Of a stretch of 47,902 nucleotides of DNA, positions 14,788 through 33,481 are shown in pieces (within the stretch, counting starts at the first letter, position 1; every line of letters starts with the position of its first letter). A program made the translations under genes and the position numbers. A model generated the notes under the pieces. That model had not been told where the DNA came from and did not search any database. It worked only from the letters and a program-made list of their open reading frames with translations. Origin of the DNA: Thauera linaloolentis 47Lol = DSM 12138 (GTDB lineage Bacteria > Pseudomonadota > Gammaproteobacteria > Burkholderiales > Rhodocyclaceae). The DNA lies in contig NZ_AMXE01000023.1 of assembly GCF_000310205.1 (NCBI RefSeq), positions 1 to 47,902 of the forward strand, given 5' to 3'.

Positions 14788-15219
14788 ATGAGCCGCGTCG
14801 TTTCGTCGCTCCCCGGCCGCATCCGCATCCGCGACAAGGCGCTGCGCAACCGCGCCCGCCTCGCCGAAATCGAAAGCGCGCTCAGGCGCCTTGATGGCGT
14901 GGTCGTCGTGGAGCCGAACGTTTCGGCGGGCAGCATCGTGCTGCACTACGCGCCGGACAAGACCGATCCGCTCCGCCTCGAAAACGAGGTCGACACCGTG
15001 ATCGACACTGCGCTGGCGGCCCCGCAGCGCCCTGCCGGCTCTCGATCGCTGCGCATGCAGGTGAATCGCTGCGCCAAGATCGGCATGATGGGCAGTCTCG
15101 CCACGTCACTCGCGCTCGCCGCTACCGGCAACAAACGCTGGCATGCGATATCGGGCGGGCTGTTCGTCGCCTGCCTGGGCATCCATCTCGGTGTCCATCG
15201 CCGCCATCTGCTGCGCTGA
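14788..15219 (+). CDS. HMA-like domain protein with hydrophobic C-terminus
   Basis: 143 aa from ATG 14788, with TGGAG upstream; an open frame extends further upstream without signal. The N-terminal 80 residues look like a ferredoxin-fold heavy-metal-associated domain (SLPGRIRIRDKALRN, LRRLDGVVVVEPNVSAGSIVLHY) without the CxxC metal motif. The C-terminal part has two hydrophobic stretches (MMGSLATSLALAATG, GGLFVACLGIHLGVH). The same type of domain occurs in the small protein at 22915-23253 and at the N-terminus of the P-type ATPase at 18942, so it is probably an accessory of that cluster although on the opposite strand, convergent with it. Confidence 0.7.
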   Translation: MSRVVSSLPGRIRIRDKALRNRARLAEIESALRRLDGVVVVEPNVSAGSIVLHYAPDKTDPLRLENEVDTVIDTALAAPQRPAGSRSLRMQVNRCAKIGMMGSLATSLALAATGNKRWHAISGGLFVACLGIHLGVHRRHLLR

Positions 15220-15234: not shown

Positions 15235-15804
15235 TCAAGGCGCGCGCTCGGCCGCCTCGCCCCGGTACGCAATACAGCCCGCCGCGAGCCTGATCAGGCG
15301 CCTCGCCAACGCGACGGCGCCTGGTTGTGCCGGGCCATCGCCGGGCAAGTAGATCTCGATGCAGAGGTAAAGAAAGGACGGGTTGTGCCAGATCCGCTCC
15401 GGAATCGCGGTGTGCGTACGGACGGCATCCGGGGCGCCGAGCACGATGATGCGCGCACTTGCAGGCTCCGCCCGTGCCAGCACGGTTTTCAGGTGCGCGC
15501 CCAGCACCGCATCGCCGCAGATGAGATCGGCGCTGGGGCCGTTCTCGTCGAAGCCGGTATGGAGGTCGATCAGCAACTGGTGATGGCTGCGCATGTGAGG
15601 CAGCAGTTGAAGATACAGTGCCTCGTGCACCATGTCGTAGCGGAAGCTCTGGTCCGGCCGCGGCCTGCGCCCCGACAGGCCGTCGGGAATCTCGAGCACG
15701 TCGACCTCGCCTGCCCGCAGGCCGTCGACCACCTCGCGGCCGAAACTAAGCTCTTCGCGATGGATGCCGATCACGACGAGCGCGGGGGCGGAACTGATGG
15801 CCAC
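15235..15804 (-). CDS. Short AstE/AspA-like zinc hydrolase homologue linked to feo
   Basis: 189 aa from a GTG at 15804, 13 nt after the feoC stop, with AGGAG 9 nt before it; a longer open frame upstream is only the feoC shadow. Motif H15-x-x-E18 (IGIHREEL) and the later LLIDLHTGFD with D80 and H82 match the zinc ligands of the succinylglutamate desuccinylase/aspartoacylase (M14-like) fold, H-x-x-E and DLHT. The usual families are longer (about 320 aa), so this is a minimal form. A hydrolase of an N-acyl amino acid or peptide-like substrate is plausible; why it sits after feoC is unknown. Last gene of the feo operon. Confidence 0.65.
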   Translation of the reverse strand: MAISSAPALVVIGIHREELSFGREVVDGLRAGEVDVLEIPDGLSGRRPRPDQSFRYDMVHEALYLQLLPHMRSHHQLLIDLHTGFDENGPSADLICGDAVLGAHLKTVLARAEPASARIIVLGAPDAVRTHTAIPERIWHNPSFLYLCIEIYLPGDGPAQPGAVALARRLIRLAAGCIAYRGEAAERAP

Positions 15805-15817
15805 CTTGGTCCGCTCC

Positions 15818-16093
15818 TCAGGCTGGCGGTCTCCCGGCCAGCCCTTCTGCCGCACCCGCAGCCGCTTCACTGCCGGCCCACTCGTACACCACCAGCGTTT
15901 CCGGATCGCACTTGCAGCACGTCGTGCCACAGCCCGAGGCGGCACCGACGATGCGCCGGACGCGCCCCTTGCGTTCGAGCGTGCCCAGCATCGGCCCGAG
16001 GGCCTCGGGTGTGCTTTCGAGCGCATGCGCCATGTCGGCCACGCTTGCCCGGCGGCGTTCGCGCAGATAGGCGCTGAGACGGGACAAGATCAT
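15818..16093 (-). CDS. feoC: FeoC-like [Fe-S]-dependent regulator
   Basis: 91 aa, 10 nt downstream of feoB. N-terminal winged helix (ILSRLSAYLRERRRASVADMAHAL, PEALGPMLGTLERKGRVRRI) followed by a cysteine cluster GCGTTCCKCDPE (four Cys), the region that binds an oxygen-sensitive Fe-S cluster in FeoC. A tail of about 20 residues rich in Ala and Gly follows. FeoC modulates FeoB stability or activity in response to oxygen. Start ATG 16093. Confidence 0.88.
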   Translation of the reverse strand: MILSRLSAYLRERRRASVADMAHALESTPEALGPMLGTLERKGRVRRIVGAASGCGTTCCKCDPETLVVYEWAGSEAAAGAAEGLAGRPPA

Positions 16094-16103
16094 CACGGCC
16101 TCC

Positions 16104-18431
16104 TCAAACCTGCTGCGGCAGCGGGAGACGGTCGCCGTCCCCCCGCGCACCATAGCGCCGCAGCGACCAGAGCGCCAGCGCGAAGCACGCAACGACGCCG
16201 CCGATCCAGGCAAGCGACGAGGCCGGATGCTGCGCCCAAGTCGCGGCCTGGTAGAACAGGGTCGCGAGGCCATAGCCCAGCCCCGTCGTCCATGCGACGA
16301 CGAAGACCGTCCACCGCGCCCCCGATTCCTGAAAGACGGCCGCCGTCGCCGCCGTGCAGGGGAAGTACAGCAGAATGAACAACAGATAGGCGAACGCGCC
16401 CGCCGCGCCATCGAAACGCGCCACCATGGCGCCGAAGGTGCCCGTCGACACTTCCTGGTCCTCGGCCACCGCCCACTGGTCGCTCAGGTCGCCGACGTCG
16501 AGGCCGATCGGATCGGCCCAGGCGCCCAGCGCCTCGACGAGATTCTCGGGAATGGTGGCAAAGGCTGCGGCGATGCTCTCGCGCAGATCGAAGGCTTCTT
16601 CCTCGTCCGCCTCGCCGCCCGCGTCCTGGACCGCGAGCGCCGAGTAGGCAGCGTCGAGCGTGCCCACCACGGCCTCCTTGGCCAGCACGCCGGTGAAGAT
16701 GCCGACCGCGGCCGGCCAGTTTGCCTCGGTCAGCCCCATCGGCGCGAACGCGGGCGTGATGCTGCGCCCGACCGCGGCCAGCACCGAGGCATCGCTGTCC
16801 TCGTTGCCATAGCTGCCGTCGGTACCGACGGAGTTGAGCACGTTCAGCACCAACACCATCGGCACGATGACGCGCCCGGCGCGGATGATGAACCCCTTCA
16901 GGCGGTCCCAGGCATGGCGCAGTACGCCCTTGACCGTCGGCAGATGGTAGGGCGGCAGTTCCATGATGAAGGGCGTCGGCTCGCCCTTCAGCAGCGTGTT
17001 GCGCAGTACCAGCCCGGTGAGCACCGCCACCGCGATGCCGATCAGGTAGAGCGCGAAGACGACGTTCTGCCCGCCGGTGGGGAAGAACGCGGCGGCAAAC
17101 AGGACATAGACCGGCAGGCGCGCGCCGCAGGACATGAAGGGCGCCATCGCGATCGTCATCAGGCGGTCGCGGCGATGTTCCAGCGTGCGCGTCGCCATGA
17201 TGGCCGGCACCGTGCACCCGAAACCGACGATCAGGGGCACGAAGGATTTGCCCGGCAGGCCCACCCAGCGCATGAAGCGGTCCATGACGAAGGCCGCGCG
17301 CGCCATGTAGCCCGAATCCTCGAGCACCGACAGGAACAGGAACAGGAAGCCGATCACCGGGATGAAGGTGGCGACGACCTGGATGCCGCCGCCGATGCCC
17401 TGCGCCAGCAGCACCGTCAGCCATGCGGGCGAGCCCAGGCCGTCCAGCAGTTCGGCGAGGCCATCGACCACCAGCGCCCCGGTGAACTGGTCGAAGAAGT
17501 CGATGAAGGCACCGCCGATGTTGATGGTGAACAGGAACATCAGGTACATCATCAACAGGAAGATCGGGATGCCCAGCGCGCGGTTGAGGACGACGCGGTC
17601 GATGCGGTCCGTCATGTCGCGGCCGACACGGCCGCTGACCTCCACCGCTTGTCCGGCGACGCGGTTGGCGAGCCCGTAGCGGGCATCGGCGACCATGATG
17701 TCGATGTCCTCGCCCAGCGCGGCGCCATGCGCCTGCGCCTCGGCGGCGAGCGGAGCGCCAGCGGCGGCGCGCGCCAGATCGTCGCCTTCGAGCAGCCTGA
17801 CCGCGAGCCAGCGCGGCGACGTGCCGACGGTCTGCGCGGCGGCTTCGAGCCGGGGCACGAGCATGCCGAGCGCCTTTTCGAGTTCGGGCTGGTACTCGAC
17901 CTGCGCCGTCGCCGGCCTGCGCGCCTGCACCGCATCGCGGATCGCCGCTTTCAGCGCATCAATCCCCTCGCCCTCCGAGGCCACGACCGGAATCACCGGA
18001 CAGCCCAGATTGCGCGACAGCGCTTCGACGTCGATGCGCAGCCCCTTGTCGCGGGCGACATCGACCATGTTGAGCACGACCAGCAGCGGCACCCGCATCT
18101 CGGCGAGCTGGGTGGTGAGGTAGAGGTTGCGCTCGAGGTTGGCGGCATCGACGATGTTGACGATCAGCCCCGCCTCTGCGGCATGCACGTAATCGCGCGC
18201 CACGCTTTCATCGAGCGAAACCTCGCGGTCGACGACGTCCAGCGAGTAGGTTCCCGGCAGGTCGACGACCTCGAAACGCAGGCCATCCTGGCGGTACTCG
18301 CCGCTTTTCTTCTCGACCGTTACGCCGGGCCAGTTGCCGACGCGCTGGCGCGATCCGGTCAGTGCGTTGAACAGCGTGGTCTTGCCGCAGTTCGGGTTGC
18401 CCACCAGGGCGATGACGTATTCGTTATTCAT
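16104..18431 (-). CDS. feoB: Ferrous iron transporter FeoB
   Basis: About 775 aa, normal for FeoB. The N-terminal G domain has G1 GNPNCGKT (about 11-19), G2 GVTVE, G3 DLPG and G4 NMVD, then the helical GDI domain and a membrane domain with two Gate repeats; the conserved SCGARLPVYVL is present and the second Gate region (LAKEAVVGTLDAAYSA) follows. Imports Fe(II) across the inner membrane. ATG at 18431 overlaps the feoA TGA by one base; a GTG at 18434 is an alternative. Flanked by feoA and feoC in the classical order, here extended upstream by a candidate ferrosome cluster. Confidence 0.97.
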   Translation of the reverse strand: MNNEYVIALVGNPNCGKTTLFNALTGSRQRVGNWPGVTVEKKSGEYRQDGLRFEVVDLPGTYSLDVVDREVSLDESVARDYVHAAEAGLIVNIVDAANLERNLYLTTQLAEMRVPLLVVLNMVDVARDKGLRIDVEALSRNLGCPVIPVVASEGEGIDALKAAIRDAVQARRPATAQVEYQPELEKALGMLVPRLEAAAQTVGTSPRWLAVRLLEGDDLARAAAGAPLAAEAQAHGAALGEDIDIMVADARYGLANRVAGQAVEVSGRVGRDMTDRIDRVVLNRALGIPIFLLMMYLMFLFTINIGGAFIDFFDQFTGALVVDGLAELLDGLGSPAWLTVLLAQGIGGGIQVVATFIPVIGFLFLFLSVLEDSGYMARAAFVMDRFMRWVGLPGKSFVPLIVGFGCTVPAIMATRTLEHRRDRLMTIAMAPFMSCGARLPVYVLFAAAFFPTGGQNVVFALYLIGIAVAVLTGLVLRNTLLKGEPTPFIMELPPYHLPTVKGVLRHAWDRLKGFIIRAGRVIVPMVLVLNVLNSVGTDGSYGNEDSDASVLAAVGRSITPAFAPMGLTEANWPAAVGIFTGVLAKEAVVGTLDAAYSALAVQDAGGEADEEEAFDLRESIAAAFATIPENLVEALGAWADPIGLDVGDLSDQWAVAEDQEVSTGTFGAMVARFDGAAGAFAYLLFILLYFPCTAATAAVFQESGARWTVFVVAWTTGLGYGLATLFYQAATWAQHPASSLAWIGGVVACFALALWSLRRYGARGDGDRLPLPQQV

Positions 18432-18658
18432 CACAGTTTCTCGACAGTCAGTGCGTCCGCCTCACCCTTGCGCAGGGTCAGCGCGAAACCGCGCACCCGG
18501 ATCTCGACCGGATCGCCCATCGGCGCGACCCGCATCACCAGCAGCTCGGCCCCTGGCGTCAAGCCCATCGACAGGAGCTTGCGGCGGTAAGGCCCTCCCG
18601 TGTCCGCAAAACCGCACACCTTGGCGCGGTCCCCTACTGCAAGTTGCTTGAGCATCAT
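18431..18658 (-). CDS. feoA: FeoA (SH3-like), feoB-proximal copy
   Basis: 75 aa, single FeoA domain: LKQLAVGDRAKVCGF, RRKLLSMGLTPGAELLVMRVAPMGDPVEIRVRG and FALTLRKGEA, the standard signature. FeoA binds the cytoplasmic part of FeoB and is needed for Fe(II) uptake. Two consecutive ATG codons at 18658/18655. Stop overlaps the feoB start. Confidence 0.93.
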   Translation of the reverse strand: MMLKQLAVGDRAKVCGFADTGGPYRRKLLSMGLTPGAELLVMRVAPMGDPVEIRVRGFALTLRKGEADALTVEKL

Positions 18659-18693: not shown

Positions 18694-18945
18694 TCAGTCC
18701 TGAAGCCGCGCCACCAGGATCTTGTGTGCCATGCCGCCGCCCAGCGCGAAACGCATCTCGCCGCGCCCGACGACCAGGCCGGCTCCCTGGCGCTGGCGCA
18801 CGACCAGTTCGCTGCCGACGTTGAGGCCCAGCTCCGCGACGCGCAGGGCCATGCCCGTCCCGCCGAGGATGGAGACGACGCGGACGGTTTCTCCTTCGCC
18901 CGCCATGGAAAGCGGGAAGGCGGCAGAGGGGCTCGGGGCAGTCAT
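18694..18945 (-). CDS. Second FeoA-domain protein
   Basis: 83 aa. FeoA/SH3-like domain (RVVSILGGTGMALRVAELGLNVGSELVVRQRQGAGLVV) with a longer N-terminal leader than the neighbouring feoA. ATG at 18945 overlaps the P-type ATPase stop by 4 bp; 35 bp separate it from the next feoA. Tandem FeoA genes are known in some feo operons; this copy is coupled to the ATPase gene and could serve it or form a hetero-oligomer with FeoA. Confidence 0.88.
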   Translation of the reverse strand: MTAPSPSAAFPLSMAGEGETVRVVSILGGTGMALRVAELGLNVGSELVVRQRQGAGLVVGRGEMRFALGGGMAHKILVARLQD

Positions 18946-21086
18946 GCGGATACCTTCTTCTGGTGTATGGCTGGCGCCTTTCTCGCACGGCGCCCGCGCG
19001 GCAACCCGGCGCCCGCGAGCGCACGCAGCAGGATGGCGATGGTGCTGCCGTTGTGCAGCGCAGACGCGGCAACCGGCGTCAGCCAGCCGAAGGCGGCGGC
19101 CGACAGGATCGTCGTGTTGAGGCCGACGGTAAGCTTGAAATTGCTGTCGATCAGCCGGCGCGTCGCCATCGACAGCGCCTTCGCATCCGCCACGCGCGCG
19201 ATGTCGTCCTCCAGCAGCGCGACGTCCGAGGCAAGCCGCGCGATGTCGGCGCCGTTGTGCATCGAGATGCCGACATGCGCGCCGCTCAGCGCGGGCGCAT
19301 CGTTGACACCGTCGCCGACGAAGGCGATGCGCGCGCCCTGCGCCGCCAGTTCCTGCAGGATGCGGGCCTTGTCCTGCGGCATCAGCCCGGCATGGAACTC
19401 GTCCAGCCCCAGTTCTCCGGCCATCACGCGCGCGCGCTCGGGATGGTCCCCGGTGAGCATCAGCACCCGTTTCACGCCGAGCCGCCGCAGGCGCCGTACG
19501 GTGGCGGCACTGTTGGCACGCAGGCCGTCGCGCAGGGCGATGACACCGAGCAGTTCGCCGCCGAAGCCGATGTAGAGCAGGGTCTTGCCGTCGAGATGCA
19601 GGCGCTCGATGATCTCGCGCTGCTTCCAGGTGGAAATCCCTTCGTCGTCCTCGATGAAGTGGCGCGAGCCGACGACGATGCGCCGCCCCTCGATGACGCT
19701 GGCGACGCCATGGGCAACGATGAATTCGACCTCTTTGTGGTCGAAGTGATGCGGATTGTCCAGGCGCCGCGAGGCCTCGACGACCGCCAGGGCCAGCGGA
19801 TGGAAATAGTGCTCTTCCACCGAGGCGGCCAGGTTGATGAGGTCTTCCGGCGAGTAGCCGGCCTTGAAGGCGATCGAGTCGGTCACCTCCAGCTTGCCGG
19901 TGCTCAGGGTGCCGGTCTTGTCGAACACGAAGGTGTCGGCCTCCGCCAGGCGTTCGAGCGCCTTCGCCCCCTTGACCAGCATGCCCGATTTGCCGGCCTC
20001 GTACATCGCGGCCTTGAAGGCGACCGGCGTCGACAGCTTGAGCGCGCAAGAATAGTCGGCCTGCAGCACCGCCGCCACCCGTTCCCAGTCGCGCGACACC
20101 AGCCAGGTGGCACCGGCCAGGCCCAGCACCATCGGCACCAGGCGATCCGCCATGCGCGAGGCTTCGAGCTGGGTGGCACTCTTCGCCGCCAGCGAATGCT
20201 CGACGAAATCCGCGATCCGCGCGGCCGCAGCCTGGGCGCCGACCCTTTCGGCATAGATGCGCAGGCGGCCCTCCTCGACCAGCGTGCCGGACAGCACGGC
20301 ATCGCCGCGCCGGCGCGCGACCGGCACGCTTTCGCCGGTCATCGTCGCTTCGTTGACCATGGCCTCGCCGCCAAGCACGGTGCCATCGACCGGAATCACC
20401 CGCCCGGTGGCGGCGATGACGGTATCGCCCACCCTGACCTCGGCGGCATCCAGCTGTATTTCGGCGCCATCGCGCTCGACCCAGATCTCGCCCACGTCCG
20501 GCTTCAGCAGATGCTTGAGCAAGTCGTCGGAACGGCGCTCGATCGAGGCTTCCAGATACTCGCCCAGGGCAAGCAGGAAGGACGTCATGTTCGCCGCGAG
20601 ATAGTCTTTGCGTCCGATCGAGATCGCGACCGCCATCGCTTCGAGCACGTGCGAGGTGACGCCTTTCTCGAGGAAATCGTCGACCGCCTCGCCCAGCAGC
20701 GGAATCGCCGTGCCCAGCGCGACCGGCGCCTGCAGCCCAGGCTGCAGCGAGCGTGTGGCGAGCAGCGTCGCCGCGCTCAGCGCCACCGGGGCGGCACTGG
20801 GCTCGCCGTCACGCATGGCGCTTTTCTGCCCCTGCATGGGCGCCATGCGCAGGATGTCGATTGCGAGGCGCTCGGCTGTCGTGGCCGCAGCATCGAATTC
20901 GACCACCAACGAACGGGCAGCCGGATTGACCCGCGCCTTGTCCACGCCGGCAATGACCACCACCGCCCGTTCGATGGCACGCGCGTCCAGCGGCGCGCCA
21001 GGGTGGCAGGTGTAGCGCCAGCGCGCACGGCCACGGGTGGCATGGATGGGTTCGAGCGCGGACACCCAGCCGGCGGTACTCATCAT
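18942..21086 (-). CDS. P1B-type ATPase with SCA motif (FezB-like, candidate ferrosome ATPase)
   Basis: 714 aa. An N-terminal HMA-like region without CxxC (about residues 18-80) precedes the ATPase core: TGES at 250-253, DKTGT phosphorylation site at 389-393, P1B HP dipeptide at 429-430, GDGVNDAPAL hinge at 591-600. The ion-binding helix has S346-C347-A348-L349-K350-L-S-T-P rather than CPC, CPH, SPC or TPC. From memory this SCALK type is the P1B-6 subgroup, to which the ferrosome protein FezB belongs; its metal is thought to be iron. Two start ATGs (21086, 21083) overlap the preceding stop, and the stop overlaps feoA. In Fez systems the ATPase sits in the membrane of an intracellular iron granule; that role here is inference from motif and neighbours. 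Confidence 0.85.
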   Translation of the reverse strand: MMSTAGWVSALEPIHATRGRARWRYTCHPGAPLDARAIERAVVVIAGVDKARVNPAARSLVVEFDAAATTAERLAIDILRMAPMQGQKSAMRDGEPSAAPVALSAATLLATRSLQPGLQAPVALGTAIPLLGEAVDDFLEKGVTSHVLEAMAVAISIGRKDYLAANMTSFLLALGEYLEASIERRSDDLLKHLLKPDVGEIWVERDGAEIQLDAAEVRVGDTVIAATGRVIPVDGTVLGGEAMVNEATMTGESVPVARRRGDAVLSGTLVEEGRLRIYAERVGAQAAAARIADFVEHSLAAKSATQLEASRMADRLVPMVLGLAGATWLVSRDWERVAAVLQADYSCALKLSTPVAFKAAMYEAGKSGMLVKGAKALERLAEADTFVFDKTGTLSTGKLEVTDSIAFKAGYSPEDLINLAASVEEHYFHPLALAVVEASRRLDNPHHFDHKEVEFIVAHGVASVIEGRRIVVGSRHFIEDDEGISTWKQREIIERLHLDGKTLLYIGFGGELLGVIALRDGLRANSAATVRRLRRLGVKRVLMLTGDHPERARVMAGELGLDEFHAGLMPQDKARILQELAAQGARIAFVGDGVNDAPALSGAHVGISMHNGADIARLASDVALLEDDIARVADAKALSMATRRLIDSNFKLTVGLNTTILSAAAFGWLTPVAASALHNGSTIAILLRALAGAGLPRGRRARKAPAIHQKKVSA

Positions 21087-21535
21087 GCGTCTCCGTGACG
21101 CTCCGCCTCGACTTCGGCGCGGATGTCGGCCATCTGCTCCTTCATTTCCTCGAAGCCGCCCGCCACGCCGGTGTACAGCTTCATCGCCGACTTGACGATC
21201 TTGCCGCGCAGTTCCTCGTCGCTCAGCACCCAGGCCGCCGCCGCGCCGATCAGCGCACCAAGCAGGAACTGCTCGGTGTTGCCCGTGCGCAGGAAGGCCG
21301 GCATGCCCTGCAACAAACCGCCATCGAGCCCGGCCGGCTGCTGCGGCGGAACGGCAGTGCCATAGGCATTCTGCCCCATGCCTTGCGCAAAGCCCTGCGC
21401 GAACCCGGCGTCGGCCGCCATGCCGCCCATCGTTCCATACTGCGCATAGGGCGACGGGCCGCCCGGCGCCTGGTATGCGCCGTCCTGGGTTGCCCTGCCG
21501 CCGTTTCCGCGATGTTTCCTGTGCTTCTTAGCCAT
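21083..21535 (-). CDS. Small Gly/Gln-rich membrane protein (YtxH/DUF5132-like), possible Fez accessory
   Basis: 150 aa. Basic N-terminus (MAKKHRKHRG), a Gly/Pro/Gln-rich low-complexity region (about 20-90, with FAQGFAQGMGQ repeats), one hydrophobic segment FLLGALIGAAAAWVL (about 104-118), then an amphipathic charged helix SDEELRGKIVKSAMKLY...FEEMKEQMADIRAEVEAE. A single membrane anchor with a long amphipathic helix fits a structural protein of a membrane compartment. Overlaps the ATPase start and the preceding gene by a few bp. I recognise only a loose likeness to YtxH or DUF5132 proteins. Confidence 0.75.
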   Translation of the reverse strand: MAKKHRKHRGNGGRATQDGAYQAPGGPSPYAQYGTMGGMAADAGFAQGFAQGMGQNAYGTAVPPQQPAGLDGGLLQGMPAFLRTGNTEQFLLGALIGAAAAWVLSDEELRGKIVKSAMKLYTGVAGGFEEMKEQMADIRAEVEAERHGDA

Positions 21536-21869
21536 CTTCCCTCTCCTGTTCGGCCTGCGCCGGATCGCGCAGCAATCGTTCTATGAGCAGCACGCCCGCG
21601 GCACCGGCTGCAGCCACGGCCAGCATCCTTGTGTAGTCCTGCCGGCGGAAGGCGGAGGCGGCCTGGCTTCCCGCCGCCAGCGCCGCGCCGCCCTGCAATG
21701 CATGGCGCAGCACGCGCTTCATTTCCGCTGGCGACGCGGGCGAAGGGCGGTCCTGGAATGCCGACAGGCAGCCTGCCGCGACGAAACCCTGGGCAAAAGC
21801 TCCGCTCGTGGCCCGCAGCGGCAGGCCGGCCGGCGCCTGGGGGGCATAGGACATGATCGGGTTTCTCAT
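21528..21869 (-). CDS. Small hydrophobic protein of the candidate ferrosome cluster
   Basis: 113 aa. Ala/Gly-rich with moderately hydrophobic helical stretches (TSGAFAQGFVAAGCL, LQGGAALAAGSQAASAF, LAVAAAGAAGVLLIERLL). No family recognised. The SGAFAQGFVAAG element echoes the FAQGFAQGMG element of the downstream neighbour, suggesting the two share an ancestral segment. Overlaps neighbours by 4-8 bp on both sides, so it is translated as part of the cluster. Confidence 0.65.
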   Translation of the reverse strand: MRNPIMSYAPQAPAGLPLRATSGAFAQGFVAAGCLSAFQDRPSPASPAEMKRVLRHALQGGAALAAGSQAASAFRRQDYTRMLAVAAAGAAGVLLIERLLRDPAQAEQEREDG

Positions 21870-22231
21870 GATTCGGCTTCCCTGCCATCCGCCGCCGGCG
21901 CGGCCGCAGGTTTGGCCTTCCTGGCCCTCGGGGCGCGCTTCCTGGGCGCGGAGGCCGGTTTCTCTGCCTGCGCCGGCTCATTCTGCACAGTGTCATCACC
22001 CGCCGTTCGGGTGTCGGCCGCTACCTCTGCAGCCGCTTCGCCGGTATCCGCCGCGAGGTGCTTGCGCGCACGCGCCGATGCGCTCTCGATGGCTTCGAGG
22101 CTGGACACCGTGACGCCGCGCAGCGTGTCCTGGGCCTTCTCCAGGCCAGCCTTGGTCTTGTCGGTCTTGAGCAGGCGGAGCGCGACTGCGCCAGTCAGCA
22201 CCCCTGCGACAAAGGGAAACAGCGGGAACAT
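21866..22231 (-). CDS. Single-span membrane protein with basic Ala/Lys tail
   Basis: 121 aa. An N-terminal hydrophobic segment (MFPLFPFVAGVLTGAVALRLL), a conserved-looking helix (KTDKTKAGLEKAQDTLRGVTVSSLEAIESASARARKHL), then a low-complexity acidic portion and a very basic tail (APRKRAPRARKAKPAAA). The tail could bind nucleic acid, phosphate polymers or acidic surfaces. No family recognised with certainty. Only 1 bp separates it from the ferritin-like gene upstream. Confidence 0.7.
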   Translation of the reverse strand: MFPLFPFVAGVLTGAVALRLLKTDKTKAGLEKAQDTLRGVTVSSLEAIESASARARKHLAADTGEAAAEVAADTRTAGDDTVQNEPAQAEKPASAPRKRAPRARKAKPAAAPAADGREAES

Positions 22232-22232
22232 G

Positions 22233-22928
22233 TCAGTTCTCCTTGTGATGGCGGCCGATCCTGCCTTTCAACAGGTAGACGCCTGCGCCGCCCGCGACCA
22301 TGCCGGCCAGCATGGCGGGGTGTGCTTGGCGCAGAAGCGGACTGATGACACCGAGCGGCCCGACATACGGCCCGAGCTGCGAGAAGGCGCTTTCGAGAAA
22401 GTCGGACAGCGGGCCGTGGCGGACGTAAGCCTGCTGGGACGGAATGCCGTGTGCGGCGTGATAGGTTTCCTGCGCCTGCGCCGCAACGGCCGCCTGGCGG
22501 AAAGCCGGCAGATGATTCTGCAATGCCGCGGCCTGCAGGTTCTGGAACACCCTGCGCACCTCGGGTTCGGCGACTTGCGTCAGCAGGTAGGCATACAGTT
22601 GCACATTGGCGATCTCGCCCACCACGGCACGCTGGCAGTTCGCCAACCAGGTCGGCTCGACCGTGGTCTCCCGTGCAAAGGGGTCGAGCGGCCGCGGAAT
22701 GCCGAAGCGCTCGCACAGCCCGAGCAAGGCGGCCACATGCTGCTCTTCCGAGCGCAGGATGTTGGTGAACGGCGGACGTTCGCCGAAGGCCTCGATCACC
22801 CGCGCGTAGAAACTGCGGGCCGCATATTCGTCATAGAGTGCGATCCGGACCGCCTGGTGTGCAGCGGGAAACGGCGCAGCGGGATCGACACGCTGCGTGC
22901 GCAGGATCAGTTCGTCATAGTTTTGCAT
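22233..22928 (-). CDS. Ferritin-like diiron-type protein with C-terminal membrane anchor
   Basis: 231 aa. The four-helix pattern resembles DUF2202-type ferritin-like proteins: E34 in LYDEYAARSFY, E61/E62-x-H64 in RSEEQHV, E105 in GEIANVQLY and H139 in LQNHLPAF. The last motif in relatives is typically ENH; here it is QNH, so one carboxylate ligand may be missing. After about residue 150 comes a spacer and a hydrophobic segment (AMLAGMVAGGAGVYLLKG) with a basic end. Iron oxidation or storage at a membrane surface is the likely role. Start ATG 22928 overlaps the upstream gene by 14 bp. Confidence 0.8.
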   Translation of the reverse strand: MQNYDELILRTQRVDPAAPFPAAHQAVRIALYDEYAARSFYARVIEAFGERPPFTNILRSEEQHVAALLGLCERFGIPRPLDPFARETTVEPTWLANCQRAVVGEIANVQLYAYLLTQVAEPEVRRVFQNLQAAALQNHLPAFRQAAVAAQAQETYHAAHGIPSQQAYVRHGPLSDFLESAFSQLGPYVGPLGVISPLLRQAHPAMLAGMVAGGAGVYLLKGRIGRHHKEN

Positions 22929-23253
22929 TGCCGATCTCCAGATAGGTATCGCGCAAGATGCGTTCGAGGATCTCAGCCGCATCCGAGGCGATACCGCCCA
23001 GCAGGTCAGCCCATGCCCGCTCCGGGATGACGATGGGGTCGTAATGCACGGTGCAGGAGCGTGCCAGCAGGTTTACCTGGACAGAATCGATACCGGGAGC
23101 CCGGTCGAGCAGAGACTGGAATGCACGCGCCTGCGCACGGGGCACATCGACGGATACGGCCCGGCTTTCGAGCTTGAGCCGAATGCGCCCACGAATGTGG
23201 TGGGCAATGCACACATCGTCCAGAAAGCTGCGTAACTTTTCAAAATCAGGCAT
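22915..23253 (-). CDS. Small HMA-like protein, first gene of candidate ferrosome/feo operon
   Basis: 112 aa, cytoplasmic. Ferredoxin-like fold pattern: HHIRGRIRLKLESRAV, LLDRAPGIDSVQVNLLARSCTVHYDP, with no CxxC motif; it resembles the domain at the N-terminus of the P-type ATPase and the protein at 14788. Followed by a helical end (AWADLLGGIASDAAEILERIL). Start chosen at ATG 23253, which has GGAG 6 nt upstream; an extended frame to 23355 lacks such a site. Probably interacts with the ATPase or metal cargo. It lies about 190 nt downstream of the predicted transcription start. Confidence 0.75.
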   Translation of the reverse strand: MPDFEKLRSFLDDVCIAHHIRGRIRLKLESRAVSVDVPRAQARAFQSLLDRAPGIDSVQVNLLARSCTVHYDPIVIPERAWADLLGGIASDAAEILERILRDTYLEIGNAKL

Positions 23254-23441
23254 CGGATTCTCCAGCTCGGCCTTCCCCGCGAGTTCCCCGGAAAGCAATG
23301 CAGACGGCCAGCGCTTCACCCCGGGAGAATCCCGAAGGTGGTTCCTGGCTGGCAAACTCGGCTGGCTACACGAACCGACTCGAACGGAACGAAACAGGCA
23401 TCCGCCTTTTCATGCGCGGGAAAGCTGCCTTCCTTAGCGTA

Positions 23442-23490
23442 TGTCATCACTATACTCCGACCTCTCAATCACCGATCTGACGCACGTCAA
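23442..23490 (-). promoter_or_regulatory. FNR/CRP-type class II promoter of the fez-like/feo operon
   Basis: On the minus strand a dyad TTGACGTGCGTCAG (23490-23477) is followed by TATAGT (23454-23449). If transcription starts at 23442 the dyad is centred exactly at -41.5 and TATAGT occupies -12 to -7, the textbook geometry of an FNR-activated class II promoter. The half-sites TTGAC/GTCAG fit FNR/DNR-family sites (TTGAT-N4-ATCAA) with C/G at the variable position. Implies anaerobic induction of the operon. Confidence 0.7.
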
Positions 23491-24320: not shown

Positions 24321-24340
24321 CTGACGCACGTCAAGCTTTG
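24321..24340 (-). promoter_or_regulatory. Second copy of the FNR-like site (exact 20-bp repeat)
   Basis: The 20 bp at 24321-24340 are identical to 23477-23496. The core reads TTGACGTGCGTCAG on the minus strand. A TAGGCT hexamer (24299-24294) lies one base off the spacing seen at the first site, giving a weaker candidate -10 for the outer-membrane gene starting at 24192. The site also contains the stop codon of the nnrS-like gene. Confidence 0.6.
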
Positions 24341-25635
24341 GCGTCCACGTCCTCCATCACCTCCTCACACCCCGTTCCCGCATCCGGTCTCGCGCGCACG
24401 AACACCGCACCAAGGAAGACCGCCGCCAGGCCATAGCCGATCGCCCACGCAACCACGCTCATCGCCTGCAGCCCGGCAGCGGCCGCTCCGGGCAGGCCGG
24501 ATGCCGCGCGTACCAGCGCGGCAACACCGATTGCCACGGCGGCAATTTGTACCCACGGCCGCGTGTCCAGTGCGTAGCCGGCATGCGTCCGTCCGGCGAT
24601 GCACAGCACACCGAAGATCGATACGCCCATGGCACCGACCGTCAGCAGGTGCAAACCCGCGCTGGGCGCCACCGGCACGCCGAGCAAGGACAGGCCGATG
24701 AGCGCATAGCCAAGCGCCATCGACCAATACACCGTGTAGAGCATCAAGGCCCAGCGCGACAGCAGCGCACGCCCGACGTGCCAGTCGTTGAGCAGGTTCA
24801 GCACTGCCGCGGCCGCGGCAAGCGCAATCCAGCCGGAAATCGCCGAACCTGGCAGCGCGAGCGCCACCGCGGTGTACAGCGCCACGCCGAAGATGGCGAG
24901 ATTGCGCCGTGGTGGCCGAGCCCGGTAGTCGAGCAGTTCGTCGTCGTCTTCGTCAGGGCGGCGGGACAGTCCGCCAGTGCGGCCATCCGTATATTGTGCG
25001 GCGCGGCGCAGACGCTCGGCCTCGAGCGCGTCATTGACGATACGCATCGAAACCCGGCTCAGCGCCACGATGATGAGCACCATCATCATGCCCACGCCGG
25101 CCAGCACCCAAGGCATCGGATACACGCCCCGCAGCACGTCGGCATGGAAACCGGTCACGGCCAGCCACATCGCGGCCAGCCCCCACAGGAAGGACAGGTG
25201 GCGCCGCTCCGGGTCATGCCACAGGCGGGGCGCCACCAGCACGACGAGCGCCGCCATGAAGCCGCTGTTGAGCAGCGCGGCAAGCATCTCGCCCATGCTG
25301 CCCATCGCGCCGGACAACCAGAACGCAAGCCTTGCCCCCGCCCACAGCAGCAACATGGCGATGGTCACGCGCCGCCCGAATGCCGCGGTCGAGGTGAACT
25401 CGGGGACTGCGGTCAGCACGAAGCCCGCGACGGCCGCGAGCCCGAAACCGAATACCAACTCGTGCGCATGCCAGACGATGGGGCCGCCCGGCACTGCCGG
25501 CACACCCACCCCGGCAGCAAGAAAACCGAGCCAGCCGAGCAGCAGGGCAACCCCATAGATCGCGGTGACGAGGAAGAAGGGCCGGAAACTGCACATGAAG
25601 AGGGGTTTCGCAGCCAACCGATCGAACACGTTCAT
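24331..25635 (-). CDS. NnrS family membrane protein
   Basis: 434 aa from ATG 25635. About 12 hydrophobic helices with the NnrS pattern: FRPFFLVTAIYGVALLLGWL near the N-terminus, IVWHAHELVFGFGLAAVAGF with conserved His, and LHLLTVGAMGVSIFGVLCIAGRTHAGYALDTR. NnrS is a haem- and copper-containing membrane protein linked to denitrification and to protection of iron pools from nitric oxide. A charged loop (GGLSRRPDEDDDELLDYRARPPRR) separates the two halves. It starts 7 nt after the ABC ATPase stop, so it appears to be the last gene of the TonB-receptor/ABC operon. Confidence 0.92.
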   Translation of the reverse strand: MNVFDRLAAKPLFMCSFRPFFLVTAIYGVALLLGWLGFLAAGVGVPAVPGGPIVWHAHELVFGFGLAAVAGFVLTAVPEFTSTAAFGRRVTIAMLLLWAGARLAFWLSGAMGSMGEMLAALLNSGFMAALVVLVAPRLWHDPERRHLSFLWGLAAMWLAVTGFHADVLRGVYPMPWVLAGVGMMMVLIIVALSRVSMRIVNDALEAERLRRAAQYTDGRTGGLSRRPDEDDDELLDYRARPPRRNLAIFGVALYTAVALALPGSAISGWIALAAAAAVLNLLNDWHVGRALLSRWALMLYTVYWSMALGYALIGLSLLGVPVAPSAGLHLLTVGAMGVSIFGVLCIAGRTHAGYALDTRPWVQIAAVAIGVAALVRAASGLPGAAAAGLQAMSVVAWAIGYGLAAVFLGAVFVRARPDAGTGCEEVMEDVDAKA

Positions 25636-25642
25636 CTGCCGA

Positions 25643-26515
25643 TCATCCCCCACAGCGGCTACCACCACGTGCAGCAGGCACAGGCTCGGCCGGCACCACC
25701 AGCCGCAGCGCGGACACCGGCCGCGCCGGCGCCGGCGCCTCCGCTCCCCGCTCTCCGGCCCCGGGCATCGCGGGCGGCAAACCGAAGCTCTCGCGCACCG
25801 CCGCCGTCTGCAGCAATTCCGCCGTATGGCGGTAGACCCAGGCGTCGTCCCGCCGAGCGGCAGGCACGCTCAGTTCGAAGCGGCACACGATGCGCCCCGG
25901 CTCGGGCGCCATCACCAGAATGGCGTCCGATAGGCGCACGGCCTCCATCAGGTCGTGCGTGATCATCAGCACCCCCATCTCACGGTCAGCCTGGTGGTCC
26001 AGCAGCAGGCGGTAGAGCTCTTCCTTCAAGCCCACATCCAGCGCCGAGAAGGGTTCGTCGAGCAAGAGCAGGTCGGGTGCCAGCACCAGCGCGCGCGCCA
26101 ACGCCACCCGGCTCTGCATGCCGCCGGACAATTGGTGCGGGAACTTGTCGAGATCCCGATGGGCAAGACCGAGCCTCAAGGCGATGTCGTGCGCACGATA
26201 ATGGCGTTCGTCGCACTTCATGCCGGCGGCCTTGAGACCAAGCGCGATATTGTCGAGCGCGCTCTGCCACGGCAGCAGGCGCGGCTGCTGGAACATGAAG
26301 GCGGTGGTGGCGAAGGTGTTGGACACCCGGCCCTGCTGCACCGTCAACAAACCCGCGGCCAGGTGCAGCAAGGTGGTCTTGCCACACCCCGAGGGACCGA
26401 CCAGCGCCGCCACCTCCCCCGCGGGCAGGCGAAAGCCGATGCCGGCCAGCACTTCGTCGCGGCCGAAAGCATGGCTCAAGCCATCAACGCGAAGCTCACG
26501 CGGCGGCGCACTCAT
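25643..26515 (-). CDS. ABC importer ATPase (NitT/TauT type)
   Basis: 290 aa from ATG 26515. Walker A GPSGCGKTT, Q-loop FMFQQPRLLPWQSALDN, signature LSGGMQSRVALARAL, Walker B LLLLDEPFSALD, H-loop ITHD. Closest in style to SsuB/TauB/NrtD-type ATPases. C-terminal 70 residues form an extension (ELLQTAAVRESFGLPP and a Pro/Ala-rich end). Energises the importer formed with the permease and binding protein upstream. Seventy-six bp separate it from the permease gene. Confidence 0.9.
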   Translation of the reverse strand: MSAPPRELRVDGLSHAFGRDEVLAGIGFRLPAGEVAALVGPSGCGKTTLLHLAAGLLTVQQGRVSNTFATTAFMFQQPRLLPWQSALDNIALGLKAAGMKCDERHYRAHDIALRLGLAHRDLDKFPHQLSGGMQSRVALARALVLAPDLLLLDEPFSALDVGLKEELYRLLLDHQADREMGVLMITHDLMEAVRLSDAILVMAPEPGRIVCRFELSVPAARRDDAWVYRHTAELLQTAAVRESFGLPPAMPGAGERGAEAPAPARPVSALRLVVPAEPVPAARGGSRCGG

Positions 26516-26591
26516 TGCACTCCCCTCCGACCACACGGCATGCTTCCCGAGGGAACACGCCTCCTCTCTTCCGACTGGCGAACGGGGGCGC

Positions 26592-27383
26592 TCATGCTCC
26601 GTGCTCCCGCCAGCGCTCCACCTCACGCTTGATAGGCTCCAGCACAAGGTATTCGACCGCGAGCAGCAAGCCAACCACGGCTGCGATCCAGGCCATCGTC
26701 GCGGCGGTGTCCAGATGCGAGCGCGAAACCGCGAGCGCCGCGCCGACCCCGTCCTGGGTCGCCAGCAGTTCGGCCATCACCACCACTTTCCACGACGTAC
26801 CGAGTGCGGCAATCCAGGCCGGGAACAGGTAGGACACAACATGCGGCAGATACACGTCGGTAAACATCATTCGCGGTGGCAGGCGAAAGGCTTCCGCCAT
26901 GCCGCGCAGCTGGTTGTCCAGAGTCCGCGTGCCCTGCAGGGCGCCGATGAAGATCACCGGAAAGGCCGCGACGAACACCGTGAACACCGGCGTACCATCA
27001 CTCGCCCCGAACCACAGCATCGCCAGTACCAGCCAGGCGATCGGCGGCGTCCCCATCAGCACGGTGACCAGCGGGCGCGACATCATCGAGGCGGTCATCG
27101 ACAGTCCGGCCAACAGCCCGAGCAGGCTGCCTGCGGCGACCGACAAGGCATAGCCCGTCAGGGCCCGGCGCGCGGTGGCGGCAAGCTCCGGCCAGGCCGC
27201 GCCGCTTTCGACAAGGCCCAGCAGAGTTCCGAAGGCAGAGCGCGGATCCGGCATCACCAGCGGGCCGTAGACGAGGCTGACTGCCTCCCACGCGGCAAAG
27301 AACAGCAACAGGCTGGCGATTGCGCCCCAGCCGCTCCACAGGTAGGCGGGCAAGCCGGCCGCCCAGGCGCGCAGCAGCCTCAT
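26592..27383 (-). CDS. ABC importer permease (NitT/TauT type)
   Basis: 263 aa, about six membrane helices. Contains the EAA-type loop (RTLDNQLRGMAEAFRLPPRMMFTDVYLPHVVSYLFPAW) and TPPIAWLVLAMLWFGASD, typical of SsuC/TauC permeases. ATG at 27383 overlaps the binding-protein stop by 4 bp. Upstream in-frame extension lies inside the neighbouring gene and is ignored. Inner membrane. Confidence 0.9.
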   Translation of the reverse strand: MRLLRAWAAGLPAYLWSGWGAIASLLLFFAAWEAVSLVYGPLVMPDPRSAFGTLLGLVESGAAWPELAATARRALTGYALSVAAGSLLGLLAGLSMTASMMSRPLVTVLMGTPPIAWLVLAMLWFGASDGTPVFTVFVAAFPVIFIGALQGTRTLDNQLRGMAEAFRLPPRMMFTDVYLPHVVSYLFPAWIAALGTSWKVVVMAELLATQDGVGAALAVSRSHLDTAATMAWIAAVVGLLLAVEYLVLEPIKREVERWREHGA

Positions 27384-28414
27384 TGCATCACGGCCGCGCC
27401 GGTGTAGAAGCCATCGTCGGGCAGTTTCCCGCCGAGCAAAGCTGGATTCTTGCGCAGCAGATGGTCGAACATGAACTCGAGTTCGGCACGGGCATCGCCG
27501 ATGGACACAGCCTCCAACTGGCTGACGGCGATCGAATCCGTCACCGCCTCGGGGCTCAGCATGTCGATGCGGGCGGCAACCGCCCTTCCACAGGACGCTG
27601 CATTGCTGCGACACCAGGCCAGCGAGCGCACGTATTCGGCTTCGATACGGGCAACGAGATCGGGCCGCTCACGCAACGCCCCCATGACCGCGATGCCGGC
27701 CTGCGGGATGCGGGCCGCACGCTTGAATACCCGCCCCCACTCCTGCTGCAGGTCCACGCTGCGATGCAGTTCGGGCGCCACCATGCTCAGCGGGAAGGAG
27801 CCGGTCTTGCGCAGAGCCATCGACACCGCAGGCTCCGCCAGCAGGGCATGATCGACGCGGCGCATCACCAGCAACTGCATGGCGTCGATCGGGCTGGCGA
27901 CATAACGCAGCGTCAGGTCCTTGCGCACCTCCAGGCCCTGCTGCTCGGCCAGCAGCTGGAAGACGATGTCCGGCATGTCGCCGCGGAAGGGCATCGCCAG
28001 CTCCTTGCCGCGCAGGTCGGCGAGCGATTTCAGCGTCGGATCGCGCGACACCAGCCACAGCACGCCCCATGTCGATACGTTGAGCATCCTCAGCTTCGCA
28101 CCGCGATTATAGAGGTTGGCCGCGACATTGGTCGGCATCGCGAGTACGTCGGCGCGGCCGTCGAGCGCCATCACGCGCAACTGGTCGGGATCGCGCCAAG
28201 GAACGAACTCGACCACCTCCGCGACATCGGCCAGCGCGCCCGAATCGACCATGTGGATCAGCGGATTGGAAACCGCCGCCGACGGGCCGGCAAGCGTCAG
28301 CTTCGGCAGCTTCTGCGCATCGGCAGTGCCGGTCACGATCAGGAATGCGAGCACCACGCAGGCGTGCAACAGTATCCGGCTCCAGCCGGGCAATTGGGGG
28401 CGTGGTGCTCGCAT
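27380..28414 (-). CDS. Periplasmic substrate-binding protein (NMT1/NitT-TauT-like)
   Basis: 344 aa. Signal peptide (LLHACVVLAFLIVTGTADA), then the type II periplasmic-binding fold: LTLAGPSAAVSNPLIHMVDSG, VMALDGRADVLAMPTNVAANLYNRG, SLADLRGKELAMPFRGDMPD and VMRRVDHALLAEPAVSMAL. The substrate is not evident. It starts 1 bp after a TonB receptor gene and is followed by permease and ATPase, so the cargo is likely something first moved across the outer membrane by the receptor, unusual for this ABC class, which normally handles small anions or pyrimidines. Confidence 0.87.
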   Translation of the reverse strand: MRAPRPQLPGWSRILLHACVVLAFLIVTGTADAQKLPKLTLAGPSAAVSNPLIHMVDSGALADVAEVVEFVPWRDPDQLRVMALDGRADVLAMPTNVAANLYNRGAKLRMLNVSTWGVLWLVSRDPTLKSLADLRGKELAMPFRGDMPDIVFQLLAEQQGLEVRKDLTLRYVASPIDAMQLLVMRRVDHALLAEPAVSMALRKTGSFPLSMVAPELHRSVDLQQEWGRVFKRAARIPQAGIAVMGALRERPDLVARIEAEYVRSLAWCRSNAASCGRAVAARIDMLSPEAVTDSIAVSQLEAVSIGDARAELEFMFDHLLRKNPALLGGKLPDDGFYTGAAVMQ

Positions 28415-28415
28415 G

Positions 28416-30476: not shown

Positions 30477-30560
30477 GTGCGACTCCATCGGGGTGAAGAG
30501 CTGACTGGCGAAAACCGGCCAGTTCGGAATGACTAAAGGATCAACTGGATGGAACAATAG

Positions 30561-30726: not shown

Positions 30727-31023
30727 TCAATGCGTCAGCGAACCCGGCGTCGGAGCGGGGGATGATTCGCTGAGCAGGGCGTACGCACGCCAGTCGCCGA
30801 CCAGCTTCGCAGCACACTCGCGCACGCAGCCGGCCATTCGCACATCGCTGCCGATCACCTCCAGGTGATCGGCGATGGCTTTCGCCACCGCCGGCGACTG
30901 CCGCGCCGGAAAGCGCGACAGCAGGTGCAGTACCGCGGCAAGAGCCAGTTCGGGCTGGTTGGGATACGCCAGCCCTTCTTCCGGCGCAGCCGCCGCGCCG
31001 CGGCGGGGTGCGAGGGAGCTCAC
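30727..31023 (-). CDS. Small helical protein downstream of S4 paralogue
   Basis: 98 aa from GTG 31023, overlapping the S4-paralogue stop by 4 bp. Predominantly helical: ELALAAVLHLLSRFPARQSPAVAKAIADHLEVIGSDVRMAGCVRECAAKL. No family recognised. It aligns by eye with the protein at 31647-31937 (LA-x-VL...SR at the same place, a D before a Cys, then a Leu-ended helix), so the two probably derive from one ancestor and bracket the S4 gene. Function unknown; iron-limited regulation is inferred from context. Confidence 0.65.
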   Translation of the reverse strand: MSSLAPRRGAAAAPEEGLAYPNQPELALAAVLHLLSRFPARQSPAVAKAIADHLEVIGSDVRMAGCVRECAAKLVGDWRAYALLSESSPAPTPGSLTH

Positions 31024-31631
31024 AGTCGCACCGCATAGTATTCGACGACCTGCTGGACGTCGACCGGGAACGGCACTTCGTCCGGCGATGGCGTACGCGT
31101 CACGCTTGCCGTAAAGGCGGACTCATCGACATTCAACCATTCGGGACGCGTCAGCGAGGGCTCGGCGAGCGACTCGACGACAACCGGGATGCGGCGCCCA
31201 CGTTCGGTCAGCTGGATGCGGTCGCCCGGCTTGATGCGGATCGACGGGATATTGACCGAGCGGCCATTCAGCAGCACATGCTTGTGACGCACCAATTGCC
31301 GCGCAGCCACCGTGGTGGGGGCAAAGCCGGCGCGGAACACGAAGTTGTCCAGGCGGCGCTCAAGCAGCTCGAGCAGCTTTTCGCCGGTCGGGCCGCGGTC
31401 GCGCTTGGCTTCGCGGAACAAGCGCTGGATCTGCTTCTCGGTCAGGCCATAGTTGAAACGCAGCTTCTGCTTTTCGATCAGTTGCACGCCAAAGCCCGAC
31501 TTGCGCTTGGGACGCTGGCCATGCTGACCGGGCGGGTAGTTGCGCTCGCCGAGCGATTTGCGCGACAGGCCGGGCAGTTCGGTGCCAAGCGCACGCATCA
31601 CTTTCAGTCGGGGGCCGGTATAACGGGACAA
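31020..31631 (-). CDS. Ribosomal protein S4 paralogue, zinc-free, cyanobacterial/plastid-like
   Basis: 203 aa. Full S4 architecture: N-terminal domain MSRYTGPRLKVMRALG...YPPGQHGQ, then EKQKLRFNYGLTEKQIQ, LLERRLDNFVFRAGFAPT and the S4 RNA-binding domain (AARQLVRHKHVLLNGRSVNIPS). No cysteine occurs in the N-terminal region, so it cannot hold the zinc of C+ S4 proteins. The MSRY-x-GPRLK opening, PGLSRK, FNYGLTEKQ and VVEYYAVRL end are the style of cyanobacterial and chloroplast S4, not of the betaproteobacterial rpsD (MARYIGPKCKLARREG...). Start is TTG at 31631 with AAGGAG 6 nt before it. Not in a ribosomal operon; a substitute S4 used under metal limitation is the likely role. Confidence 0.92.
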   Translation of the reverse strand: MSRYTGPRLKVMRALGTELPGLSRKSLGERNYPPGQHGQRPKRKSGFGVQLIEKQKLRFNYGLTEKQIQRLFREAKRDRGPTGEKLLELLERRLDNFVFRAGFAPTTVAARQLVRHKHVLLNGRSVNIPSIRIKPGDRIQLTERGRRIPVVVESLAEPSLTRPEWLNVDESAFTASVTRTPSPDEVPFPVDVQQVVEYYAVRL

Positions 31632-33381: not shown

Positions 33382-33394
33382 GCCTGGCCCCCGA

Positions 33395-33423
33395 GGGGGC
33401 GTGCCGGCATCCGGCACGCCCCC
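33395..33423 (+). other. Perfect 13-bp hairpin between imelysin and di-haem genes
   Basis: GGGGGCGTGCCGG (33395-33407), loop CAT, complement 33411-33423. Very stable stem 13 nt after the imelysin stop without a following T-run. Likely a processing, stability or partial termination element that lets the first gene be expressed more than the rest of the operon. Confidence 0.65.
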
Positions 33424-33481
33424 CGATGATGCACAGGCGCAGCGAGGCCACCGCCCCTTGCGCACAGAGAACGGACGATCG

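Follow-up and report, generated by a model that had tools for sequence, protein, structure and literature searches.

A probable ferrosome-type (fez) gene module built into the feo operon of Thauera linaloolentis

Is an iron organelle of the ferrosome type encoded together with the importer for ferrous iron in Thauera linaloolentis 47Lol? The question is raised by a run of minus-strand genes on contig NZ_AMXE01000023.1, which was analysed at its full length of 47,902 nucleotides (hereafter, the window; contig C23, from a genome of 4.2 Mb at 99.99% completeness). In this run, a cassette of six genes for a metal ATPase of the P1B group, small membrane proteins and a ferritin-like protein leads directly into the feo genes. 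An earlier note on this DNA had interpreted the cassette as a ferrosome (fez) cluster fused to a feo operon. Here, we conclude that a fez-type module is probably built into the feo operon. We assign the cassette to the fez type because a P1B-6 ATPase is encoded with small membrane proteins.

The cassette spans 23253-18942 on the minus strand, and its neighbouring genes overlap or abut. In order, they encode a small HMA_2-like protein of 112 amino acids (aa) with GRxR in place of CxxC (22915..23253; Pfam HMA_2 6.8e-6, 26.5 bits, cut-off 30), a ferritin-like (DUF2202-like) four-helix protein of 231 aa with a C-terminal hydrophobic Gly-rich segment (22233..22928), a small one-helix protein of 121 aa with an Ala/Lys/Pro tail (21866..22231), a small Gly/Ala-rich hydrophobic protein of 113 aa (21528..21869), a YtxH/DUF6110-like (PacL-like) protein of 150 aa (21083..21535) and a FezB-like metal ATPase of the P1B-6 type of 714 aa (18942..21086). 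These genes are followed on the same strand by a first feoA (18694..18945; Pfam FeoA 1.8e-13), a second feoA (18431..18658; 1.1e-21), feoB (16104..18431) and feoC (15818..16093; Pfam FeoC 3.1e-17), each over its Pfam cut-off. Both the order of the six genes and their continuation into feoA-feoA-feoB-feoC are as the earlier note had described them. The Feo system is complete here, with FeoA, FeoB and FeoC all recognised, and a profile search of the genome returned this feoB as the only copy over the cut-off. The ATPase gene and the first feoA, which starts within it, overlap by 4 base pairs (bp), and no intergenic gap across the cassette and feo run exceeds 35 bp, the 35-bp gap being the one between the two feoA genes. 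Because the genes overlap or abut in this way, the six cassette genes and feoA-feoA-feoB-feoC are likely to be transcribed as one mRNA. Since the genes for what is probably a membrane-enclosed iron store share this tight run with the sole recognised Feo set, the cell may induce iron import and iron storage jointly.

That the locus is real and goes beyond chance is confirmed because the six-gene order recurs on an Arcobacter plasmid (L059; loci fetched for comparison carry L numbers). There, the genes are annotated as a hypothetical protein without HMA, DUF2202, two hypothetical proteins, YtxH and the ATPase. By blastp, identities to the window proteins are 26% for the HMA-like protein, 31% for the ferritin-like protein, 33% for YtxH and 47% for the ATPase, while the two middle small genes are matched to the window genes by profile only. 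Homologues of the 121-aa and 113-aa proteins, which were sought in the fetched loci only, are present in cassette loci: the 121-aa family comprises 24 aligned rows including the window and has no Pfam match, and an iterated hidden Markov model (HMM) profile of the 113-aa protein, for which Pfam gives no match above cut-off, has 27 matches among the open reading frames (ORFs) of these loci. In the small HMA-like family, all 23 aligned members have GRxR and none has CxxC.

The class of the cassette is set by its ATPase. Helix 4 reads QADYSCALK, and the SCALK ion-site motif on which the earlier note had relied is, thus, present; the last helix reads SALHNGST. The use of SCALK as a label for P1B-6 is that of the earlier note, and the wider pattern in transmembrane helix 4 (TM4), D-x-[SA]-C-x-x-K, comes from the alignment table of this analysis. 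This pattern is present in the window protein and its 40 relatives (41/41) and HN in the last helix in 39/41; L057 and L078 are without HN because their ORFs are cut. The reference pumps have CPC, SPC or CPG at the same position. Across the 34 aligned rows, D344, C347, K350, H678, N679 and T682 are invariant, as are R20 and R22 in the N-terminal domain. At the N-terminus, 27 of 37 rows contain the exact GRxR string, and three of 37 have a CxxC within residues 1-130. The AlphaFold2 (AF2) model has an HMA-like fold at the N-terminus and a P-type layout. For the phylogeny, the near-copy or cut rows L036, L057, L060 and L078 were dropped, leaving 48 rows, i.e. 37 with the motif and 11 other P1B ATPases including E. 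coli CopA, ZntA and three paralogues from this genome. The 37 D-x-[SA]-C-x-x-K rows split from the 11 others with support 100/100. Thus, the tree that the earlier note had proposed as a check shows no clustering with Cu or Zn P1B groups. Judged by its motifs, the HN pair and its clade, the ATPase is of the P1B-6 type, to which FezB presumably also belongs. In P1B-6 pumps, the HN motif is conserved in TM6 and DUF6110 proteins are typical encoded partners, as stated in the available part of the source (PMC9374683).

Which metal would such a pump move? Among the 37 rows with the motif in the ATPase tree, 12 have feoB in the fetched stretch by HMM annotation, with at least seven changes on the tree; by a rough estimate based on one copy per 4.2 Mb genome, the chance of feoB in such a stretch is ~0.5%. 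In Thauera, Azomonas agilis and Burkholderiaceae loci, feoB is behind the ATPase gene (the window, L027, L028, L029, L031, L032, L033, where the contig is cut, and L039). It precedes the ATPase gene in L044, L050, L055 and L078 (L078 being outside the tree) and also, at a distance of at least ~3.6 kilobases (kb), in the two Clostridia loci L035 and L036, of which L036 is again outside the tree. That the pump handles iron is suggested mainly by this linkage to feoB because it is recurrent and differently arranged. The ATPase matches TIGR01525 (heavy-metal P1B) with 473 bits and does not reach the cut-off of the copper model TIGR01511. Of the further P1B pumps encoded in the genome, three pass the TIGR01525 cut-off, and all three are on contigs other than that of feoB. 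The pump might, alternatively, transport another divalent metal (Zn, Cd, Co, Ni or Mn) and merely adjoin feo, as could be argued from the match to the cadmium-family model TIGR01512, at 351.4 bits over the curated cut-off of 313.5, from a substrate assigned by sequence, and from the 25 of 37 rows that have no feoB in the fetched stretch, partly through contig ends. However, TIGR01512 is a subfamily model and no test of substrate, the tree and the motifs set the ATPase apart from the Zn/Cd and Cu rows, and the feo neighbours recur in several orders, with TonB receptor and imelysin genes flanking the run in the window. We, therefore, consider a pump for another metal very unlikely; a Cu or Zn pump identity was rejected by motif and tree although the TIGR01512 cut-off was passed.

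In the YtxH-like protein, which is encoded directly before the ATPase, a Gly-zipper helix precedes an amphipathic stretch. Pfam matches the protein to YtxH and DUF5132, both below cut-off, and not to DUF6110. By profile-profile comparison, its family (21 proteins) matches a set of four DUF6110-type proteins with a probability of 95.1 and E 3e-8 over 57 columns; the set was defined as four proteins encoded directly before P1B-6 ATPases, and two of the three tested exceed the Pfam DUF6110 cut-off. With the DUF6110 rows excluded, a plain profile of the 21 YtxH-like proteins finds two of the four set members, at 1.6e-5 (the Deinococcus DUF6110 protein) and 1.2e-4. An iterated profile gave a lower E of 2e-17, which may be circular. 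On these profile matches, the YtxH-like protein is a distant DUF6110 (PacL-like) homologue and, thus, of the partner family of P1B-6 pumps. In the Anaerotignum and Deinococcus loci, a DUF6110 gene lies directly before the P1B-6 ATPase gene.

This homology also opens a different explanation. The available parts of the sources describe a relationship between DUF1490 (PacL) and DUF6110, and report that PacL clusters pumps into membrane foci and is involved in zinc and multi-metal resistance. The PacL1-CtpC pair of Mycobacterium, as described there, resembles the window in that a small one-helix protein of the DUF1490/DUF6110 group is encoded with a P1B-6-like pump. By contrast, TM4 of CtpC has CPC where the window ATPase has SCALK, and PacL1-CtpC is a zinc/multi-metal efflux system for which the available text mentions neither a storage protein nor feo. 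In an "effluxosome" of this kind, the P1B-6 pump would be held in clusters within the cytoplasmic membrane by the DUF6110-like protein and would export to the periplasm whatever Fe(II) Feo imports in excess, with no organelle involved. The PacL/DUF6110 type of the window YtxH-like protein fits this explanation, and detoxification beside an importer is sensible. However, the cassette also encodes two more one-helix proteins, two HMA_2-like proteins and one with a ferritin fold, and the available parts of the sources mention none of these for PacL systems. Moreover, FezA, a membrane protein, and FezB, a transporter, are needed for ferrosomes in Clostridioides difficile and are repressed by Fur, according to the available part of that report. 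We consider an efflux platform unlikely and favor the fez-type module.

In the canonical diiron ferroxidase site, the ligand set is E, ExxH, E, ExxH. The ferritin-like protein of the window matches Pfam DUF2202 at 1.8e-4 and 21.8 bits, slightly under the cut-off of 22, and 10 of 15 family members match at 0.01. Its AF2 model, computed from 13 sequences, is a four-helix bundle with a mean predicted local distance difference test score of 72.8 (helices 21-159 mostly >85, tail <50). In a Foldseek search of the PDB, no match was at or below E 0.001; the best was MJ0754 (3q4n; E 1.9e-3, template modelling score 0.64 of the target), followed by other ferritin-like chains. Among the 15 homologues, E34 is present in 12, E61 in 14, H64 in 12, E105 in 14 and H139 in 15, and these five ligands are kept together in 11, with two Arcobacter rows being near-identical; the canonical Glu of helix D is present in none. 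The 231-aa protein is, thus, predicted to have a ferritin fold and iron binding is possible, while ferroxidase activity is not supported. Because one canonical ligand is absent in 15 of 15 homologues, oxidation or storage by this protein is unproven, and the oxidase/storage role that the earlier note had proposed is weakened. The gene is found in 14 of the 37 rows, with at least five changes on the tree, and this patchy occurrence therefore makes it an accessory of the cassette.

A seventh cassette gene (14788..15219, plus strand) is located beyond feoC, convergent with the operon and outside the interval considered in the earlier note, in which it was missed. Its product has an HMA_2 domain (33.8 bits, cut-off 30) and a hydrophobic tail with a weak match to DUF4405 (20.1 bits, cut-off 26.7; E 9e-4). 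In its family, 11 of 15 members match DUF4405 at E <=0.05, at best at 9.3e-4, and all 15 aligned members keep H118 and H132. The ferrosome protein FezC is, according to the available part of the source, a DUF4405-like cytochrome that binds heme b; FezC comes from Desulfovibrio magneticus, and heme binding was demonstrated with the Desulfurispirillum indicum protein. The window protein may resemble FezC in the weakly DUF4405-like tail with two invariant His and differs from it in the HMA_2 domain in front and in the sub-threshold DUF4405 match. Because this match is weak, that the protein is FezC-like is put forward only as a hypothesis. A search for a separate DUF4405 gene elsewhere in the genome gave two matches, neither over the cut-off. 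The seventh gene is beyond feoC on the opposite strand in the window, L027, L028, L029 and L039. In L041, L042, L043, L048 and the Azospirillum plasmids L058 and L064, which have no feo behind the ATPase gene, its homologue is directly upstream of the small HMA gene. The His-containing tail is missing in the distant aligned loci L051-L056, L061, L062, L077 and L078. Between feoC and the seventh gene, the open frame 15235-15930 on the minus strand has no Pfam match at 0.01.

Upstream of the operon, a 17-bp leader element (GGTTCGTGTAGCCAGCC, 23360-23376, minus strand) is kept in four relatives (L027, L028, L039 and L040) and absent in L029 and L033. The operon leader is its sole perfect match in this genome, and with at most one mismatch it is found at this operon alone in four of the five genomes searched, the fifth (G048) having two mismatches. 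Rfam found no riboswitch in the leader. As a regulon motif the element was rejected, the two-mismatch totals being no higher than in the reversed-pattern control. Also 5' of the operon is an FNR/DNR-like half-palindrome (TTGACGTGCGTCAG, 23477-23490, minus strand; TTGAC-N4-GTCA), which is weak alone; it is repeated upstream in L027, L028 and L039 and, in a TTGAT form, in L040, and is not found in L029 and L033. Because its shuffle p values are 0.18-0.46 apart from L040 (0.005), the site is only suggestive. The best Fur match in the window is 10/19 (p 0.8), and the matches in relatives are 12 in L032 (p 0.000, 200 shuffles), 15 in L048 (p 0.000), 13 in L038 and 14 each in L054, L059 and L062, with some of the start positions used in the Fur/FNR pattern search being approximate.

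How does the locus compare with known systems? The six-gene fez operon of Shewanella putrefaciens, which we take to be a close system, and that of Rhodopseudomonas palustris are multi-gene operons like that in the window, with a P1B-6 ATPase as the centre if FezB is of this type, as we presume. R. palustris has six fez genes, RPA2333-2338, according to the available part of the source, and the Azospirillum plasmid cassette likewise has six genes. Compared by gene content, the window differs from RPA2333-2338 in the extra ferritin-like gene, the detached HMA_2/cytochrome-like gene and feoA-feoA-feoB-feoC in the run. With FezA-FezB of C. difficile, the window shares a small membrane protein and a transporter, but only these two genes are named there, whereas the window has seven cassette genes and feo. 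Three features are new: the cassette is fused to the sole feo system, a ferritin-fold protein is added as an accessory, and the candidate FezC-like gene stands apart from the other cassette genes. Among the literature matches listed, no title or abstract start deals with fez joined to feo or with ferrosomes in Thauera; the founding ferrosome papers may mention feo beside fez.

The fez interpretation of the earlier note is supported in part: the P1B-6 class stands, one of the small proteins is homologous to DUF6110, which answers in part the note's call for similarity to Fez clusters, and the oxidase/storage role is weakened. Several points weigh against a fez-type module in the feo operon. The assignment to the fez type was made by gene content, the substrate of the ATPase is predicted from context, and the PacL-type relatives, as far as described in the available sources, serve metal efflux and not an organelle. 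The ATPase also exceeds the cadmium-family cut-off. In addition to the rows in which feoB was absent from the fetched stretch, L030, L038 and L040, which belong to the window's own 11-row clade, have no feo in the 2.7, 4.8 and 8.3 kb behind the ATPase gene, and the seventh gene was not found in the fetched stretches of L030, L031, L032 and L038. Finally, a pattern search upstream of the operon found neither a sigma-70 promoter nor a convincing Fur box, and only a weak FNR-like site. Taking these points into account, we still hold the fez-type module to be probable.

In the mechanism that we propose for this module, Fe(II) would enter via FeoB, and part of it would be taken out of the cytoplasm by the P1B-6 ATPase and delivered to a membrane compartment. 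Through glycine-zipper helix packing, the three one-helix proteins, the DUF6110-like one among them, may cluster the pump and shape or crowd the membrane, and the HMA_2-type proteins, with GRxR for CxxC, could be docking or anion/iron-handling domains. The ferritin-fold protein may bind iron at the compartment membrane and perhaps be anchored there, and the HMA_2 cytochrome-like protein encoded beyond feoC, possibly with a bound heme, would set the redox state of the iron. A bolder version, which we advance tentatively and regard as doubtful, is that the sole Feo importer and an iron organelle are encoded in a single transcription unit. One uptake-to-storage machine would then be made up of FeoB, the P1B-6 pump, the membrane ferritin-fold protein and the FezC-like HMA_2 cytochrome, with Fe(II) from Feo being passed straight on to the organelle, and the GRxR HMA_2 domain would be a new cysteine-free iron/phosphate module.

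The cassette recurs patchily, in Thauera, in Azomonas and on Azospirillum and Arcobacter plasmids. Among named organisms, the closest relatives of the ATPase come from Thauera butanivorans, whose locus is L027, at 92% over 703 columns, and from further members of this genus. Searches at E 1e-100 found the ATPase in 14 of 150 family genomes, 8 of 398 phylum genomes, 2 of 369 class genomes, 4 of 48 genomes in the class of G250 and 2 of 385 in the class of G439; the query genome or the centre is counted each time, and the searches overlap in some genomes. Twelve loci came from a scan of named genomes, none of them from a species with a proven Fez set; one of the 12 (L037) turned out to be a CPC pump and was placed among the reference rows instead of the relatives. 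In a plasmid collection searched at 1e-90, there were 13 records (eight Azospirillum, two Arcobacter and one each of Cereibacter, Vibrio and Deinococcus). In the ATPase tree, Azospirillum (Alphaproteobacteria) is nested in the 23-row clade of the window family and Azomonas (Pseudomonadaceae) in the window's 11-row clade, both with support 100/100, and these placements point to horizontal transfer. That the cassette spans two phyla and is carried by plasmids suggests movement between lineages. L059 and L060 are plasmids of Arcobacter food isolates on which the cassette, including the DUF2202 gene, is near a recombinase and HipA; in L060, which has a Tn3 transposase nearby, two separate frames make up the ATPase gene. 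P1B-6 cassettes are also present in a small class of Pseudomonadota (L051-L053 and L055; 48 genomes searched).

Upstream of the cassette, the same strand carries a TonB receptor gene, the permease and ATPase genes of an ABC transporter with a candidate binding protein whose Pfam match is below cut-off, and a gene for NnrS. Genes for NnrS, an ABC transporter and a TonB receptor lie beside the cassette both in the window (24331-30557, minus strand) and on the conjugative Cereibacter plasmid L061 (1-4978). Further along, a lone gene for ribosomal protein S4 (31020-31631, minus strand; 203 aa, cysteine-free), perhaps a paralogue, lies amid iron-related genes, and genes for an imelysin, a di-haem oxidoreductase and a second imelysin (32233-35976, plus strand) are perhaps an iron-related periplasmic operon. 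Overall, the region around the cassette looks like an iron island.

Ferrosomes were recently discovered, and this locus bears on the route by which they are loaded. In T. linaloolentis, the importer, the pump and the candidate redox and binding proteins are encoded together in a member of an environmental genus with one feoB over the cut-off. Thus, a route from importer to store would be testable here by simple deletions. The ATPase with its DYSCALK and HN motifs, the DUF6110-like partner and the GRxR HMA_2 proteins also provide a set by which such clusters may be recognised.

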